Shown one piece after another: positions 11,150 through 58,299 of a stretch of 64,000 bases of DNA; position 1 is the first letter of the stretch, and each line of letters begins with the position of its first letter. The position numbers were made by a program, and so were the translations under genes. The notes below the pieces were generated by a model, which saw only the letters and a program-made list of their open reading frames with translations, was not told the DNA's origin and ran no database searches. Origin of the DNA: Candidatus Nitrosothermus koennekei (lineage in GTDB: Archaea; Thermoproteota; Nitrososphaeria; Nitrososphaerales; Nitrosocaldaceae); contig JACAFH010000003.1 of the NCBI GenBank assembly GCA_013538715.1, positions 59,478 through 123,477 of the forward strand, in the 5' to 3' direction.

Positions 11150-11707
11150 TTAGATAACTTGCCACGGTCTAGTCGCAAATGTTACTCCATAACCTACAAG
11201 TATCAGTATAGTTTGGTATATTATATTAGCTACTGATGCAGGCTTGCCTATTGGAGGACCATCTACGAATATAGTCTCACCAGGACCAAGACCAGGACCT
11301 ACACCAGCAACATTTAACTGTGTATGGACATGATATGTACCAGCTTCTAATGCTCTCATCCTCATCTCATACTTTATAGTTTGTAATGCTGGAATATCAA
11401 ATACGTTTCCTGGTGGACTTCTATATACAAACTCCCACCTATTACCTGAGTTTGCTGACTCATTGAATAAAGAAGCCCATGCCCTTAAATCTCTATTTAC
11501 TAGACTCCTAAACTCACCAGTTACTGTTAATATCTCTCCAGTCCTTACTGTAGTCTTGTCGAATTTCTCATTTGCAATCTCTACAAACCTACTCTGTAAT
11601 TGTGCCTGCACACCATGCGCCCATGCCTTTTCCATAGCAGATGCCGATATACCTAATACGATCATTGCTACTATGCTTGCCAGTAATAGTGTGCTACCTA
11701 TCTTCAT
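11150..11707 (-). CDS. amoB: Ammonia monooxygenase subunit B (archaeal AmoB)
   Basis: The 185-residue protein has an N-terminal signal/anchor helix (about 5-24), then the strongly conserved AHGVQAQLQSRF, RTGEILTVTGEF, SGNRWEFVYRSPPGNVFDIP, TYHVHTQLNVAGVGPGLGPG and a C-terminal helix ending FATRPWQVI. The histidines matching the copper site of particulate monooxygenases are His31, His126 and His128. AmoB is the extracytoplasmic subunit of the enzyme oxidising ammonia to hydroxylamine. amoA, amoC and amoX are not within this window; the neighbours are tatA upstream and tRNA-Lys(CTT) downstream. A TATA box lies just upstream. Confidence 0.97.
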   Translation of the reverse strand: MKIGSTLLLASIVAMIVLGISASAMEKAWAHGVQAQLQSRFVEIANEKFDKTTVRTGEILTVTGEFRSLVNRDLRAWASLFNESANSGNRWEFVYRSPPGNVFDIPALQTIKYEMRMRALEAGTYHVHTQLNVAGVGPGLGPGETIFVDGPPIGKPASVANIIYQTILILVGYGVTFATRPWQVI

Positions 11708-37553: not shown

Positions 37554-37936
37554 TTAGCTATTAATAGATCTATTTTTATTATAAAAACTTCGTTATGAAT
37601 ATACGTCATTATTTAGATATACAAAATCTAAAAAATATATCTTTAGATAGAACATCTAGTAACTTTAGATTAAGACAAAATAATATGTTTTGTTCATATT
37701 TATATAATATATTATCTTCAACGATCTATGATATTTAATATGAACTTCAGAACATTACATTATTGGAGATTACATATTTAAGATGCAAGAATAGTATTTA
37801 TTAATAGTGAGAATACGAAAAAGAACATAGTTGTAATACGACAATTCCTACAATTTAGATAAGCGATAATATAATTAGGTGCTTATTCATGATATATCTA
37901 CTTGATTTTTATATTATAAAGGATGAAAATATAGAT
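37554..37936. other. Non-coding AT-rich stretch upstream of carbamate kinase
   Basis: About 380 bp without a credible gene, RNA fold or repeat. Several short direct AT-rich repeats are within chance expectation for this composition. Confidence 0.45.
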
Positions 37937-38851
37937 ATGAAGATAGTAATAGGCCTTGGAGGGAATGCATTAATAAGCAAAGATAGAAGTTTTGAAGGTC
38001 AATACAGTTCTATCAATGAAATATCTTACAAACTTGCATTATTAATAAAGAAAGGTTATAGATTAGTTATAACTCATGGAAATGGCCCTCAAGTTGGAGA
38101 AACTCTTCTTAGACATGAGCATACAAAAGATTTGATACCACCATTACCACTATTTGCATGTGTAGCAGAAACACAAGGATTACTAGGTTTCATGTTAGAA
38201 TCATCTATAAATAAGCATCTATCATTACTTAATACTAAGAGTCAAATCGTTACATTATTGTCAAGAGTAATGATATCTATAGATGATCCATCTCTTAGTA
38301 ATCCTACTAAACCTATAGGACCCTTTTATTATGAGGAGAATATTAAAGATTTGTTAAAGATCAATCCAAATATTAGATTTAAAAAGATAGATGGTATGTA
38401 TAGAAGGGTAGTTCCATCACCCGAACCTATTAAGATATTAAATATTGATGCTGTAAAGAGATTACTTGATGATGGATTTAATGTAATAACTGGTGGTGGA
38501 GGAGGAATACCTATAGCAAATGATCATTTCATTGATGCTGTTATTGATAAAGATCTTACCAGTGAAAGATTAGCAACGGAACTCAATGTATCAAAACTCA
38601 TATTGTTAACAAATGAGAAAGGTGTATACCTTAATTATAAAAGTGAGAATGAGAGGTTACTAAAGAACGTAACAACGAGTGAATTAAAGTATTATTTAGC
38701 GTGTAATAAATTTGAAGAGGGTAGCATGAAACCAAAAGTTAAAGCAGCATTGAGATTTGTAGAGAATACTAAGAGAGAGGCTGTAATTGCAGATCTCGAT
38801 GATCTATTAGACGCTGTAGATGGAAAGGCTGGGACCGTTATTAGTCTTTAG
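37937..38851 (+). CDS. arcC: Carbamate kinase-like amino acid kinase
   Basis: From ATG 37937 (MKIVIGLGGNALISK) it has 304 residues, the carbamate kinase length. Motifs are GGNAL, VITHGNGPQVG, the proline-rich PLFACVAETQG, VVPSPEP, VITGGGGGIPI and the C-terminal FEEGSMKPKVKAAL. The enzyme interconverts carbamoyl phosphate plus ADP and carbamate plus ATP. No arginine deiminase or ornithine transcarbamylase lies nearby. In an ammonia-handling organism it could make carbamoyl phosphate or recover ATP from it; neither is proven. The frame is open to 37889 but the family start fixes the ATG. Confidence 0.9.
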   Translation: MKIVIGLGGNALISKDRSFEGQYSSINEISYKLALLIKKGYRLVITHGNGPQVGETLLRHEHTKDLIPPLPLFACVAETQGLLGFMLESSINKHLSLLNTKSQIVTLLSRVMISIDDPSLSNPTKPIGPFYYEENIKDLLKINPNIRFKKIDGMYRRVVPSPEPIKILNIDAVKRLLDDGFNVITGGGGGIPIANDHFIDAVIDKDLTSERLATELNVSKLILLTNEKGVYLNYKSENERLLKNVTTSELKYYLACNKFEEGSMKPKVKAALRFVENTKREAVIADLDDLLDAVDGKAGTVISL

Positions 38852-53419: not shown

Positions 53420-54151
53420 TTACTTTAATGCTGATAATATATCTCTTAATACTTTAGAACCGTTCTCTTCAAATGCTGTACCTATAACTATAGCATTTGC
53501 ACCTGCTTTGCTAAGCTCTCTTGCTATATTACCATTCTTTATTCCTCCGCCTACTATCAAAAGCCCTTCAAAACTATTTCTAACATAAGATACCATCTTA
53601 GGGTCAACACTTCTTGATGCACCAGAACCAGCTTCTAAATATAAAGCCCTCATACCCATATATTTTGCTGCTAATGCATACATAACTGCTATCTTTGGTT
53701 TATCAAACGGTATACCTCTTGCTTGTCCAACAAACCATGCTGTACTACCATCACCTATTATTAAATAAGCCATTGGTATACTCTCCAATTTATATTTCTC
53801 TATTGCTAATGCTCCTAACGCTTGTGCTTGTGATATGTAATAAGGATTTTCTGAATTTAGCAATGAACTAAATAATATTGCATCAGCATAAGGTGATATA
53901 CCTGTAACATTCCCAGGAAACAATATTACTGGTATGCTTATTTTACTCTTGATAGCTTGTATTATATTACTTAATTCTATCTGATCTATTGCTGAAGAGC
54001 CGCCTACTAATATTGCATCAACCCCAAGCTCTTCAGCGTCTTTTGCCATCTCTACTGCCTTTACTAGTTCTAGCATCTCAGAATCTAATAATATAAAACA
54101 TAGCGTATGCTCTTTACACTTCATTCTAAGAATATCCTCAATTCTTCCCAT
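53420..54151 (-). CDS. Geranylgeranylglyceryl phosphate synthase
   Basis: The 243-residue TIM-barrel prenyltransferase has FILLDSEML at the first strand, 'DAILVGGSSAID', FPGNVTGISPYADAILFSSLLN and 'YLEAGSGASRSVDPKMV' followed by 'LIVGGGIKNGNIARELSKAGANAIVIG'. It joins geranylgeranyl diphosphate to sn-glycerol-1-phosphate, the first ether-bond step of archaeal lipids. It pairs functionally with the prenyl synthase at 40.5 kb. The gene is divergent from the small protein gene at 54222. Confidence 0.94.
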   Translation of the reverse strand: MGRIEDILRMKCKEHTLCFILLDSEMLELVKAVEMAKDAEELGVDAILVGGSSAIDQIELSNIIQAIKSKISIPVILFPGNVTGISPYADAILFSSLLNSENPYYISQAQALGALAIEKYKLESIPMAYLIIGDGSTAWFVGQARGIPFDKPKIAVMYALAAKYMGMRALYLEAGSGASRSVDPKMVSYVRNSFEGLLIVGGGIKNGNIARELSKAGANAIVIGTAFEENGSKVLRDILSALK

Positions 54152-54221: not shown

Positions 54222-54572
54222 ATGAGTATTATAGATATTAACAAAAATGATATTATTAAATACTTAATTAGAAAATCAGTATTAACTGAGAAACAAATAT
54301 CAATTATTTATAATAGGAAAAAAGGTATTAAAGTTAGTAACCAAAGCAAAGGTGCATACTATAGAGTATTACAACAAGGCAAGCAAAACATAGAAAGAGT
54401 ATTTTATAGTATTATATTACTAGAGATATTAAATATAATAGATGATAGAAAAATAAACACATTAAAGGCATTATCAAACAACCTTGAAAAGGCATGTGAT
54501 ATAAATAATATCAATATACGTGATGTGATAAATATAGTTGATAACATTTTAGATAACCTTGTTAACGAATAA
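54222..54572 (+). CDS. Origin-proximal helical protein of unknown function
   Basis: The 116-residue, helix-rich, AT-coded protein starts MSIIDINKNDIIKYLIRKSV. Its first half resembles a helix-turn-helix (LTEKQISIIYNRKKGIKVSNQSKGAYYRVL, in part), and the C-terminal half forms a helical pair. It could be a small DNA-binding regulator. It is first in a run of small regulators leading to the replication origin. I cannot name the family. Confidence 0.6.
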   Translation: MSIIDINKNDIIKYLIRKSVLTEKQISIIYNRKKGIKVSNQSKGAYYRVLQQGKQNIERVFYSIILLEILNIIDDRKINTLKALSNNLEKACDINNINIRDVINIVDNILDNLVNE

Positions 54573-54606
54573 ACTTTATATGTAATGTGATGTTATTATA
54601 TCACAT
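54571..54606 (+). promoter_or_regulatory. Promoter and inverted-repeat operator of the membrane wHTH gene
   Basis: TTTATAT (54574-54580) is followed by the inverted repeat ATGTGAT (54585-54591) and ATCACAT (54600-54606) with an 8-nt spacer. ATG 54604 lies at the end of the repeat, about 27 nt after the TATA box, so transcription is probably leaderless and a bound regulator would block the start. Further TCACAT copies occur inside the gene (about 54836-54870). Confidence 0.6.
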
Positions 54607-55108
54607 GACTTATGAAGAAATTGTAGAGTTTGTTACATTAGTTCTAATTGTATTAATAGGTTATGTAATAGGATTAATAACTACATTGTTCATACAAAAG
54701 GTATTAAAGGATAAGAGATGGAAAGAGATGGAAAGAGATAGAGATAGGAAAGAGATAGAGGAGTATAAAAAGGCTTTAGATAACATTATGATAAAATTAA
54801 GTGAGATAGAAACAAGATTAAAAGATAATGTCACATCAGATCAAAATATAAATCACATCACATATCACAATACTAACAGAAAAGAAAAGCATAATGATGT
54901 AGAACTACAGATACTAAGTTTATTAGAAAATGGAGAGAAGAGTTCGAGAGAAATAGAGGTCAGTATAGGAAAGACAAGAGAACATACTGCAAGATTAATG
55001 AAAAAATTGTTTGAAGAAGGATATGTTAGAAGGGATGAGAAAAAGAAACCGTATATCTACACTCTAACAGAAGAAGGAAGAAAGATTATTAAGAGAGATG
55101 CTGTCTAA
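54604..55108 (+). CDS. Membrane-anchored coiled-coil wHTH regulator
   Basis: Start at ATG 54604 (MTYEEIVEFVTL) gives 167 residues; a GTG at 54587 would lie inside the operator. One N-terminal transmembrane helix (about 10-30) is followed by a charged coiled coil (DKRWKEMERDRDRKEIEEYK..., to about 90) and a winged-helix domain (about 105-160: EKSSREIEVSIGKTREHTAR, VRRDEKKKPYIYTLTEEGRK). It would place a DNA-binding head on a stalk from the membrane, beside the origin. A role in tethering or regulating origin DNA is speculative. Confidence 0.72.
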
Positions 55109-55481
55109 TTCTTTCCTTACGATACAACCATTCATTTTTCCCTTTTATTCTTGAAAGTAGATTTCTATTAGTAAATCTACTAAGATATGTAGATATTACA
55201 CTAAGTTTTATAGGTTCATTATACCTATCTTCATATAATTCAAGTATATCACTAGAAGTAAACTCATTTGATGGATATGTATCTATAATATTCCAAATCT
55301 TCTCTCCAACTGAACTTAGTTCATGTGGTGTATTTAAATTAGTGTCAGAACCATTAATAAATTCTGCAACCTCAATCATTCTCAATAACTTATTCTTATC
55401 AAAATTACCATCAAATACTACAGAGTGTCTACTACCATCATCATACTCAATTTGTACTTTAATTCTTCTAACTCGCACCAT
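55089..55481 (-). CDS. Origin-proximal winged-helix-like protein
   Basis: The 130-residue protein starts MVRVRRIKVQIEYDDGSRHS. A beta-rich N-terminus of about 45 residues is followed by a helical part with 'FTSSDILELYEDRYNEPIKLS' and 'VISTYLSRFTNRNLLSRIKG', a winged-helix-like pattern. It is convergent with the membrane wHTH gene (20-nt overlap), and its promoter lies in the origin. It may bind the TTAAC-type repeats there. No family name is given. Confidence 0.65.
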   Translation of the reverse strand: MVRVRRIKVQIEYDDGSRHSVVFDGNFDKNKLLRMIEVAEFINGSDTNLNTPHELSSVGEKIWNIIDTYPSNEFTSSDILELYEDRYNEPIKLSVISTYLSRFTNRNLLSRIKGKNEWLYRKERIRQHLS

Positions 55482-55624
55482 TAATTATTATTATATTAAC
55501 AAATTAACAGATAAGTGTTAATGGATACTTTTTGTTAACTTGTTAAACAATAATTATAAAGCGCTTAAAAAGTATTAACAGATTAACAGGAGTGGAAATT
55601 GTGATAGTTAAAACAAGGTTGAAA

Positions 55625-55670
55625 AACACTCCAGTGGAAATTGTGGTGTCAAAAAATACTTGTTAACTTT
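55625..55670 (+). repeat. 46-bp direct repeat containing ORB, copy 1
   Basis: A perfect copy of the segment at 55685-55730. It starts AACACTCCAGTGGAAA, contains GTGGTGTC and ends TTGTTAACTTT. The period is 60 bp. Confidence 0.92.
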
Positions 55671-55684
55671 GTTAACAAAGGATT

Positions 55685-55730
55685 AACACTCCAGTGGAAA
55701 TTGTGGTGTCAAAAAATACTTGTTAACTTT
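55685..55730 (+). repeat. 46-bp direct repeat containing ORB, copy 2
   Basis: Identical to 55625-55670. Spacing of 60 bp (about six helical turns) would place two Orc1/Cdc6 molecules on the same DNA face. Confidence 0.92.
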
Positions 55731-55751
55731 AAAATTAACAAAATATTAACA

Positions 55752-55774
55752 AGAGGGACACCGGTTATTCTACT
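55752..55774 (-). repeat. Inverted degenerate ORB element
   Basis: On the minus strand, CAGTAGAATAACCGGTGTC matches the direct ORB copies at CAGT-GAA and GGTGTC (about 13 of 20 bases), in opposite orientation. Inverted ORBs flanking an AT-rich unwinding region are typical of archaeal origins. It lies about 22 bp after repeat copy 2. Confidence 0.6.
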
Positions 55775-55894
55775 GTATAGGTTTCTACATAATATATTTA
55801 AAGAATTTTTACTTAGTAACTCTAAGAATTTTTACTTCTCACTTTATAACTCTACTTCTACTATCTTATCAATAATAATAGAGAAGAAATACTG

Positions 55895-57082
55895 GTGTGT
55901 CTCTTGAGTATAGATGAGATATTCAATAAAATAGTATCTTCAAGATCATTAATTAAAGATAGAGCAGTACTTAGAGCTGATTACGTACCAGACAAACTTC
56001 TTTTTAGAAATAATGAGATAACAGCAGTTGCAGAAGTGTTATCACCATTACTAAAAGGATATAGAGCATCAAATCTATTACTTTATGGTAAGCCTGGTAC
56101 TGGTAAGACAGCAGTTGCAAGGTATGTTCTTAAACATTTACAAAGGAAAGCTAATGAATTAAATATTAAAATTGCTTTAGCTTACTCAAATACAAAGACG
56201 GCAAATAGAGAATATACAATGCTTGTTGAATTAGGTAATTCAATAGGTCTCAAGTTTCCATTTACTGGGTTAGCATCTAGTGAGCTTTTTACAAGAATAC
56301 TTAATTATATAAATAATTATAATTTAAATACTGTATTTGTTCTTGATGAAATTGACTTTCTTGTTAAGAGGTATGGTGATGAGATATTATATCAAATGAC
56401 ACGTTCAAATGAGAGACTTGAGAATGGTTCATTAGGTTTAGTTGGTATATCAAATGATCTTAATTTTAAAGAATTTCTCGATCCAAGAGTTTTAAGTAGT
56501 TTAAGTGAAGAAGAGGTAGTGTTTGCTCCATATAGTGTTAATGAGTTAAAAGAGATATTATTAGAGAGAGTTGAACTTGGTTTTTATAAAGATACAGTAA
56601 ATACTTCAGCAATAAATCTTTGTGCAGCTATAGCTGGTTCTGAGCATGGTGATGCAAGAAGAGCAGTAGATCTTTTAAGAGTTGCTGGGGAAGTTGCTGA
56701 AAGGGAGGGAGCAGTTAAAGTAGAGGAAAGACATATTAGAATTGCTGAAAAGAAGATAGAGCAAGATAAAGTTACAGAAACTTTAAGAAGGTTACCACTA
56801 CATGAGAAACTTGTAATGTATAGTATATTACTTGCAGATAATGGTATTACTGGTGACGTATACTCTAAATATCTTGAATTAACTAAAAAATTATCAATAG
56901 AACCAGTTACTCAACGAAGGATAGGTATGATGATAAGCGAACTTGATATGCAGGGTTTAATATACGCTCCTATAATAAATAAAGGTAGACATGGAAGAAC
57001 TAAAAAGATAACTTTGGCTATTCAACACTCATTATTAAAGCAGGCAATTGAAGAGGATCCTTTAACGAATGGTATATTATAA
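55895..57082 (+). CDS. cdc6: Orc1/Cdc6 replication initiator
   Basis: The 395-residue AAA+ protein has Walker A GKPGTGKT (65-72), Walker B VFVLDEIDFL, sensor 1 GISNDLNF, the box VII-like SSLSEEEVVFAPY, and sensor 2 GDARRAVDLLR. A C-terminal winged helix (about 310-395) reads the ORB boxes. The start is GTG 55895 or TTG 55904. It is adjacent to an ORB-containing origin and recruits MCM. The GC content is as low as in the surrounding genes. The next gene is a SpoIIM-like membrane protein 22 nt downstream. Confidence 0.95.
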   Translation: MCLLSIDEIFNKIVSSRSLIKDRAVLRADYVPDKLLFRNNEITAVAEVLSPLLKGYRASNLLLYGKPGTGKTAVARYVLKHLQRKANELNIKIALAYSNTKTANREYTMLVELGNSIGLKFPFTGLASSELFTRILNYINNYNLNTVFVLDEIDFLVKRYGDEILYQMTRSNERLENGSLGLVGISNDLNFKEFLDPRVLSSLSEEEVVFAPYSVNELKEILLERVELGFYKDTVNTSAINLCAAIAGSEHGDARRAVDLLRVAGEVAEREGAVKVEERHIRIAEKKIEQDKVTETLRRLPLHEKLVMYSILLADNGITGDVYSKYLELTKKLSIEPVTQRRIGMMISELDMQGLIYAPIINKGRHGRTKKITLAIQHSLLKQAIEEDPLTNGIL

Positions 57083-57104: not shown

Positions 57105-57644
57105 TTGAACATATTGTATATCACGTTAAAGAAAAGGTTTTTATACACATTAATAGCCTCGCTTATATTTGTTTTAACATATTATATTGGTAGTATTGCT
57201 CCATTAAGTGAAGAGTACTCTTCAATACTTAGGAAAGAATTTAAAAATATAATACAAAACATTGATTACCTATCAATATTTCTTAATAACTTTAGAATAA
57301 CACTTGGTATGTTTATTCCTGGAGTTGGTGCTGCTATTGGACTATATGCAGCATATAATACTGGTTTGGTATACCAATCATTTGCTCAAACATCTTCTCA
57401 ACTAGCAAGTATACCGTCATTATTAATATTATTAACACCATTTGGAATATTAGAGATATTTTCATATGGGTTAGCAATATCACAAAGTATTATTTTATTA
57501 AAGGCAATTATAAATAAAAAGTTAGATAAAACTTTGCTTTATTCTACACTCATACAAGTAGGGATGGTTACATTGATACTCTTTATTGCAGCCATTATTG
57601 AATATTATATGATAAAAGAATTAGGAGGAATAAGTATCACCTAG
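57105..57644 (+). CDS. SpoIIM/DUF95-family membrane protein
   Basis: The 179-residue protein has an N-terminal helix (about 11-32), a loop (YSSILRKEF), and four further helices. The conserved stretch 'NNFRITLGMFIPGVGAAIGLYAAYNTGLVYQ' and 'LLTPFGILEIFSYGLAISQS' are the stage II sporulation M-like signature. In archaea the role is unknown; the bacterial protein takes part in membrane/peptidoglycan remodelling. TTG start at 57105. It overlaps the convergent cbiE by 8 nt. Confidence 0.88.
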   Translation: MNILYITLKKRFLYTLIASLIFVLTYYIGSIAPLSEEYSSILRKEFKNIIQNIDYLSIFLNNFRITLGMFIPGVGAAIGLYAAYNTGLVYQSFAQTSSQLASIPSLLILLTPFGILEIFSYGLAISQSIILLKAIINKKLDKTLLYSTLIQVGMVTLILFIAAIIEYYMIKELGGISIT

Positions 57645-58299
57645 GTTTAATTACTATAACAATTAGGTCACTATATTCTTTTTCTGGTATCTCATCAAGT
57701 CTAGCATATGTTAGCTCTTCATTATGTGTTAAACGCTCATATATTTCTGCATCAAATTCTTTAAGCTCTATTTTATTATCCTTTAAGAACTCTACTATAT
57801 GTTTAGGCATGAAATCCCATGGTCGTGGAAGTATGATTACAGTCTTCCTCTTTTTTAATGCATATATCAATTCCTCCTTCTCTTTATCTATATTACCTGT
57901 AATATGAAATGTTATTATTTTACATTTATCTAGTGCCACTTTAGCTCTTGCTGCAGCGACCTGAATAGAACTTATTCCAGGTTCAATAATTATATTTTTA
58001 TCACCAAATATCTCTCTTAATCTATCAACTATCTCAGATTCTGAGAAACATGAATCACCTGTAAATGGTATTACACATATTTTCTCGCTATCTTTTATCT
58101 CCTTTAATACATTACTATAAATCTCTTCTTGCGTCTTTAATGTAACATATCTAACATCTTTATTAATAATCAAATCTTTAATTGTATTTATTGTATATCT
58201 ATAACCTACTACTATATCTGCACTCTTTATTATCTTTCTCGCTCTCTCTGTTATATAATCTGGATCTCCTGGTCCTACACCTATCAAGTATATCTTCAT
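57637..58299 (-). CDS. cbiE: Cobalt-precorrin-7 (C5)-methyltransferase
   Basis: The 220-residue tetrapyrrole methylase has GVGPGDPDYITERARKII (about 7-24), 'DIVVGYRYTINTI', 'FTGDSCFSESEIVDRL' and 'IIEPGISSIQVAAARAKVALD', the CbiE arrangement. It adds the C5 methyl group in cobalamin synthesis (anaerobic route). The other cbi genes are not in this window. With nrdJ here, the cell both makes and uses B12-type cofactors, as reported for ammonia-oxidising archaea. Confidence 0.88.
   Translation of the reverse strand: MKIYLIGVGPGDPDYITERARKIIKSADIVVGYRYTINTIKDLIINKDVRYVTLKTQEEIYSNVLKEIKDSEKICVIPFTGDSCFSESEIVDRLREIFGDKNIIIEPGISSIQVAAARAKVALDKCKIITFHITGNIDKEKEELIYALKKRKTVIILPRPWDFMPKHIVEFLKDNKIELKEFDAEIYERLTHNEELTYARLDEIPEKEYSDLIVIVIKPR

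Follow-up and report, generated by a model that had tools for sequence, protein, structure and literature searches.

A likely Orc1/ORB replication origin with a TTAAC box array and a linked winged-helix gene in a Nitrosocaldaceae-like archaeon

The usual description of an archaeal origin is Orc1 together with ORB repeats. The stretch of DNA analyzed here (64,000 nucleotides, hereafter the window) holds a compact set of repeats beside an orc1/cdc6 gene, which raises two questions: is this the chromosomal replication origin, and is Orc1 the only protein that would read it? As judged from sequence comparison, 55490-55910 is likely the chromosomal replication origin, of the oriC1 type (Orc1-1/ORB), of a heat-loving, Nitrosocaldaceae-like ammonia-oxidizing archaeon. 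The genome comprises 1.46 Mb in 34 contigs, is 96% complete and contains one orc1, and its nearest relatives belong to one genus of that family, with genomes of 1.2-1.6 Mb. The window is low in GC (~28-38% per 2 kb), which fits Ca. Nitrosothermus (Nitrosocaldaceae), reported at 31.9-33.1% (PMC7819960). An AmoB-like ammonia monooxygenase subunit, recognized by reading its translation (11150-11707, minus strand), supports an ammonia-oxidizing archaeon. Translation reading also gave a carbamate kinase-like protein (arcC; 37889-38851, plus strand); within Nitrosocaldaceae, a carbamate kinase gene has been reported for Ca. Nitrosothermus alone (PMC7819960).

We examined the repeats by direct comparison, pattern search and an ORB profile. 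An initial sequence-only reading had described two perfect 46-bp repeats, and these were confirmed at 55625-55670 and 55685-55730, with 100% identity and a period of 60 bp. Each contains one ORB on the plus strand, ORB2 (55627-55652) in the first and ORB3 (55687-55712) in the second, both recovered by repeat comparison, genome search and profile. The same reading had pointed to a weaker upstream copy, an inverted degenerate copy downstream and AT-rich DNA among the repeats, all of which proved to be real. The upstream copy, ORB1, is a profile site 42 bp upstream (55585-55610, plus strand) whose core, AGTGGAAATTGTG at 55591-55603, has TTAACAGATTAAC just before it; its G-string is gone and it is degenerate, where six sister-genus genomes carry a full-strength copy at the same position. 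The inverted, degenerate ORB4 (55755-55780, minus strand; ACAGTAGAATAACCGGTGT), found by pattern search, profile and comparison with relatives, starts 25 bp past the second repeat. By direct reading, only 5 G/C occur over 40 bp (55713-55752), and the interval from ORB3 to ORB4 (55713-55754), given this composition and its conserved layout, is a candidate DNA unwinding element. A fifth ORB missing from the earlier account, ORB5 (55876-55901, plus strand), is degenerate, lies at the orc1 start and has a counterpart in relatives, ATTGGAAATGGTGGTGTG, just upstream of orc1; it was identified by profile and in relatives. Taken singly, ORB5 is weak, as are ORB1 and ORB4 (tail 6e-4 and 1e-3 per site, respectively, under the relatives' profile). 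We take ORB1 and the inverted ORB4 as real because they are identically placed in six relatives: the ORB order, the spacing (41-42, then ~60 bp) and the inverted ORB all recur in these six sister-genus genomes.

Full-strength ORBs were confined to this locus, and the possibility that ORB-like motifs are equally common elsewhere did not hold for them. With up to 3 mismatches, the 21-mer CTCCAGTGGAAATTGTGGTGT occurred only at the two repeat sites in the 1.46-Mb genome (control, 0), and it was found 0 times in 100 shuffles of the window. A profile trained solely on the ORBs of relatives scored both repeat copies at 30.1 bits, with the next-best site in 183 kb at 9.8 bits. Weak ORB-like matches elsewhere, obtained with CCAGTGGAAANNNNGGNGT at 3 mismatches, numbered 44 versus 34 for the reversed control and were set aside as mostly chance. 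The adjoining orc1/cdc6 gene (55895-57082, plus strand; start GTG 55895 or TTG 55904) is the sole copy in the genome and encodes an initiator of the Orc1-1 type, which matched S. solfataricus Orc1-1 at E 1e-98 and 2v1u, the solved structure of a second archaeal Cdc6 homolog (A. pernix Orc1), at E 1e-96. The locus thus combines the features of oriC1: several ORBs with the TCCAGTGGAAA dyad and a G-string (in the variant GGTGT) within one intergenic region, an adjoining orc1/cdc6 gene of the Orc1-1 type, and ORB3 (plus) and the weak ORB4 (minus) enclosing an AT-rich 40 bp with 5 G/C. Sequence match, uniqueness in the genome, the single orc1, a geometry conserved in relatives and an Orc1 type with solved structures together support the proposal that this is an ORB/orc1 origin, and an origin of this kind is already known.

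GC and AT skew, dominated by gene orientation, showed no inflection or usable signal over 183 kb of the contig around the locus (C24) or in samples covering ~44% of a complete relative (G001), including at the origin of that relative. This lack of a skew signal is consistent with the repeats being a relic or a regulatory site bound by Orc1, with replication starting elsewhere or by recombination, and some archaea are known to replicate origin-independently (PMC11005403). We consider such an explanation very improbable, since the genome has one orc1 and one ORB cluster, the cluster is strictly conserved over long divergence, and a single origin has been mapped in the relative Nitrosopumilus maritimus (PMC4010727, PMC5333045), whose ORB repeats adjoin cdc (PMC5797428).

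The ORBs lie amid a second motif, an array of TTAAC/GTTAA boxes extending over 55496-55750. It comprises 18 occurrences at ~14 distinct sites, GTTAAC palindromes being scored on both strands, and pairs are often 8-9 or 11-12 bp apart. With 18 occurrences against 1.07 expected, 55490-55790 has a higher count than any other 300-bp segment of the 183 kb examined. By themselves, TTAAC pairs are frequent genome-wide (77 versus 38 in the control), and it is density alone that singles out the origin. A TTAAC-N3-TTAAC pair directly precedes ORB1, another pair lies between ORB2 and ORB3, and the candidate unwinding element (55713-55754) holds three boxes spaced 11-12 bp apart; in the ORB3-ORB4 interval, boxes lie ~11 bp apart, and box positions are fixed relative to the ORBs. 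The sequence-only reading had suggested that a second factor may bind an extension of the repeats beyond the ORB core. The second factor is supported by comparative evidence; the extension is not, as the repeat tail TTGTTAACTTT is a member of the TTAAC array rather than part of an ORB, which makes the TTAAC box the unit to consider. Across the class, the array is conserved at origins, either as TTAAC or, in other families, as TTCAC. TTAAC is enriched at the origins of families f1, f2, f7, f9, f18, f20, and f22, and TTCAC replaces it in f5, f10, f12, and f16 (weakly in f11), with further TTCAC enrichment at origins of f24, f29, f39, f50, and others. Clear enrichment of either motif was not found in families f6 and f13 or in HK01M-like genomes. 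In three loci from HK01M-like genomes and f13 (L102, L103, and L052), the winged-helix gene described below adjoins orc1 with no ORBs and no TTAAC/TTCAC enrichment between them; there, the origin may have moved elsewhere.

Divergent from orc1 across the origin is a gene (55089-55481, minus strand) for a 130-aa protein with an N-terminal beta-beta-alpha part and a C-terminal winged helix, the recognition helix of which spans residues 93-105. AlphaFold2 predicted the winged helix confidently (pLDDT ~90, residues 61-120) and the N-terminal part with uncertainty, and a second model built from a deeper alignment was no better for the N-terminal part. Searched against Pfam, the window protein gave no family match above threshold and none to Penicillinase_R (BlaI/MecI) at E 0.1; Penicillinase_R did weakly match relatives (17 of 19 alignment members at E up to 0.1, best 1.1e-7). 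Foldseek hits included Fur, BlaI, and MecI among a range of winged helices, and no hit fell below E 0.001.

Of 200 genomes from the class, 184 carried the winged-helix gene, as did 131 of 200 from the phylum. Among the matches listed, 127 genomes of the class had both this gene and orc1 placed, and in 123 of these the two diverge across the origin, at a distance of 0.42-3.1 kb in 114 genomes and across contig ends (contigs taken as circular) in 9. The four exceptions comprise three genomes with the two genes on different contigs and one with both on the same strand. This divergent layout is repeated in other classes (f24, f29, f32, f39, f44, f50, f53, and f57); in f30, f49, f35, f26, and f47, the gene is present and not adjacent to orc1. 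In f13, it lies on the same strand as orc1. Several f30 genomes (G222 and others) have a second weak match at E ~1e-4, possibly a distant paralog. In a number of Thermoproteota families, f31 among them, the winged-helix profile found no match. Based on these comparisons, we infer that the 130-aa protein is a second origin-binding factor and propose it as the TTAAC-box binder from its gene linkage, its model, and the residue-motif association that follows.

Position 95 of the window protein lies in the recognition helix. This residue is V, I, M, A, or L at TTAAC origins and T at TTCAC origins. Threonine origins lean toward TTCAC in 42 of 44 cases and non-threonine (hydrophobic) origins toward TTAAC in 31 of 33, counts that omit one locus with neither motif (L178) and in which some leanings rest on small counts. 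The idea was formed on the class, and families added later served as a held-out check: threonine occurs with TTCAC in f24, f29, f39, f44, f50, f53, and f34, isoleucine occurs with TTAAC in f22, and f32 agrees partially, with alanine in one genome with TTAAC and one that is mixed. Exceptions were L134 and L060, with threonine and TTAAC, and L156 and L165, with alanine and TTCAC or both motifs. On the Orc1 tree, motif and residue change about six times each, and its well-supported branches offer 2-4 independent motif-residue pairs, none of them opposite, too few for a test. The association is therefore descriptively strong and statistically not independent of ancestry. Overall, the comparisons lean toward this origin-linked family being a dedicated second origin-binding factor that would read TTAAC/TTCAC arrays amid the ORBs, with one recognition-helix residue switching the motif, in most Nitrososphaeria and several other Thermoproteota classes.

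Combining the observed motifs, their conservation, the gene linkage, and the residue-motif association, we assign a probability of roughly 0.7 to an oriC1-type origin at 55490-55910 at which a second protein, most likely the linked winged-helix protein, acts on the TTAAC boxes. By homology to solved complexes, Orc1-1 from the adjoining gene would bind ORB1-3 and the inverted ORB4, its winged helix reading the TCCAGTGGAA dyad and its AAA+ insertion reading the G-string (GGTGT). Melting would take place in the AT-rich DNA that separates ORB3 from ORB4, and MCM would be loaded there. The second protein, most likely that encoded at 55089-55481, would bind the boxes before ORB1, after ORB2, and in the unwinding region, where it probably aids origin remodelling or opening, or else controls Orc1 occupancy. 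ORB5, a possible autoregulatory site, is probably where Orc1 represses its own gene.

Two other accounts of the boxes deserve weighing. The boxes could be bound by some other factor at an ordinary ORB origin, such as a UBP-like nucleoid protein, MCM, or Orc1 itself, with the winged-helix gene merely a linked regulator. There is precedent for this, as origins in Sulfolobus depend on ucm, a second element bound by the unlinked, nucleoid-associated UBP (PMC12141716); moreover, the pairing of the winged-helix protein with TTAAC rests on sequence comparison, and the residue-motif association involves few independent changes. We nevertheless consider another factor doubtful. If a different protein read the boxes, one would expect neither that the winged-helix gene stays linked to the origin in many families nor that the residue-motif association persists in held-out families. 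The dense array is also found at the origin only, unlike the sites of a general nucleoid protein, and the published ucm oligonucleotide, compared by eye only, lacks the TTAAC array.

Alternatively, the boxes could have no part in replication and serve as transcription operators of the divergent pair formed by orc1 and the winged-helix gene. They do lie in a divergent intergenic region, with a TTAAC pair just upstream of the winged-helix start, and the 130-aa protein resembles repressors of the BlaI/MecI/Fur type. The sister genus makes this improbable. There, two genes, one DHH-type and one HEAT-repeat-like (both identified by reading), are inserted between the winged-helix gene and the ORBs, placing the winged-helix gene ~2.5-3 kb off, and 12-17 TTAAC boxes remain interleaved with the ORBs, whereas the 250-bp region upstream of the winged-helix gene itself has only 1-3. 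Because the array stays with the ORBs, we assign the boxes to the origin and not to the winged-helix gene promoter, and the notion that they are merely the operator of that gene is weakened. In addition, ~14 boxes fixed relative to the ORBs exceed what a single operator would need.

We then compared the favored arrangement, an Orc1/ORB origin with a winged-helix protein on the boxes, with known systems. Sulfolobus oriC1 likewise has the Orc1-1 gene beside ORBs, and its inverted ORBs enclose an AT-rich unwinding stretch holding a second, non-ORB element. The window origin differs in having ORB1-3 as direct repeats with one inverted ORB, GGTGT instead of GGGGT as the G-string, a multi-copy TTAAC array instead of the single 11-bp ucm, and a linked winged-helix gene as the source of the proposed partner. 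In Sulfolobus, ucm is a second element essential to the origin, and the small protein that binds it, UBP, has hundreds of genomic binding sites (PMC12141716). The ucm element provides a precedent for a second element, yet its sequence differs from the TTAAC array (compared by eye only). Like the window origin, those of N. maritimus and Nitrosocaldus cavascurensis are single, cdc6-linked origins with ORB repeats (PMC4010727, PMC5797428). Relatives within this class also have the TTAAC array together with the divergent winged-helix gene; the window genome differs in its degenerate ORB1. The BlaI/MecI (Penicillinase_R) and CopY repressors share the winged-helix fold and, in relatives, weak profile similarity, whereas the 130-aa protein has its own N-terminal beta-beta-alpha part and sits at an origin. 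WhiP of Sulfolobus oriC3 is also a winged-helix protein encoded next to an origin, but it is the initiator of its own origin, whereas the 130-aa protein would be accessory, with Orc1 and ORBs present.

The literature we searched, which did not include the N. maritimus mapping paper (Pelve et al. 2013), contained nothing relevant on TTAAC boxes or a winged-helix neighbor at origins. The box array with its linked winged-helix partner is not described there and makes this a new variant within a known kind of origin. If the proposal is true, initiation in a large part of the archaea, the abundant ammonia oxidizers among them, would gain a further component, a conserved DNA-binding protein linked to the origin and possessing its own boxes, and the route from ORB-bound Orc1 to melting and helicase loading would become open to a direct test. 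The combination of winged-helix gene, TTAAC/TTCAC array, ORBs, and orc1 also offers a simple signature for annotating origins, useful in unfinished genomes where GC skew fails.

Finally, we note some features of the surrounding genes and of Orc1 itself. Neighborhood comparison identified as conserved origin neighbors a 173-aa protein that has a winged helix and, at its N terminus, a hydrophobic segment (54587-55108, plus strand) and a 116-aa small HTH-like protein (54222-54572, plus strand), with a geranylgeranylglyceryl phosphate synthase of the PcrB family (53420-54151, minus strand) as an outer conserved neighbor. The conserved order is PcrB-type synthase, small HTH protein, membrane-anchored winged-helix protein, 130-aa winged-helix protein, origin, orc1, SpoIIM-family protein, and tetrapyrrole methylase, and the block around the origin (54222-55108, 57105-58299) is largely retained across the order. 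The G-string is GGTGT in the family of the window genome and its sister family (f1 and f2); most of the order's remaining families have GGGGT. Orc1 (55895-57082) carries R105 and T108 in f1 and f2, whereas elsewhere position 105 is T or S and position 108 is mostly R; these are two of five f1/f2-specific substitutions, and both are close to the initiator-specific motif, the part that touches the G-tract (PMC9738581). As a lead only, R105/T108 and the GGTGT G-string of f1 and f2 form a possible second co-evolving pair.
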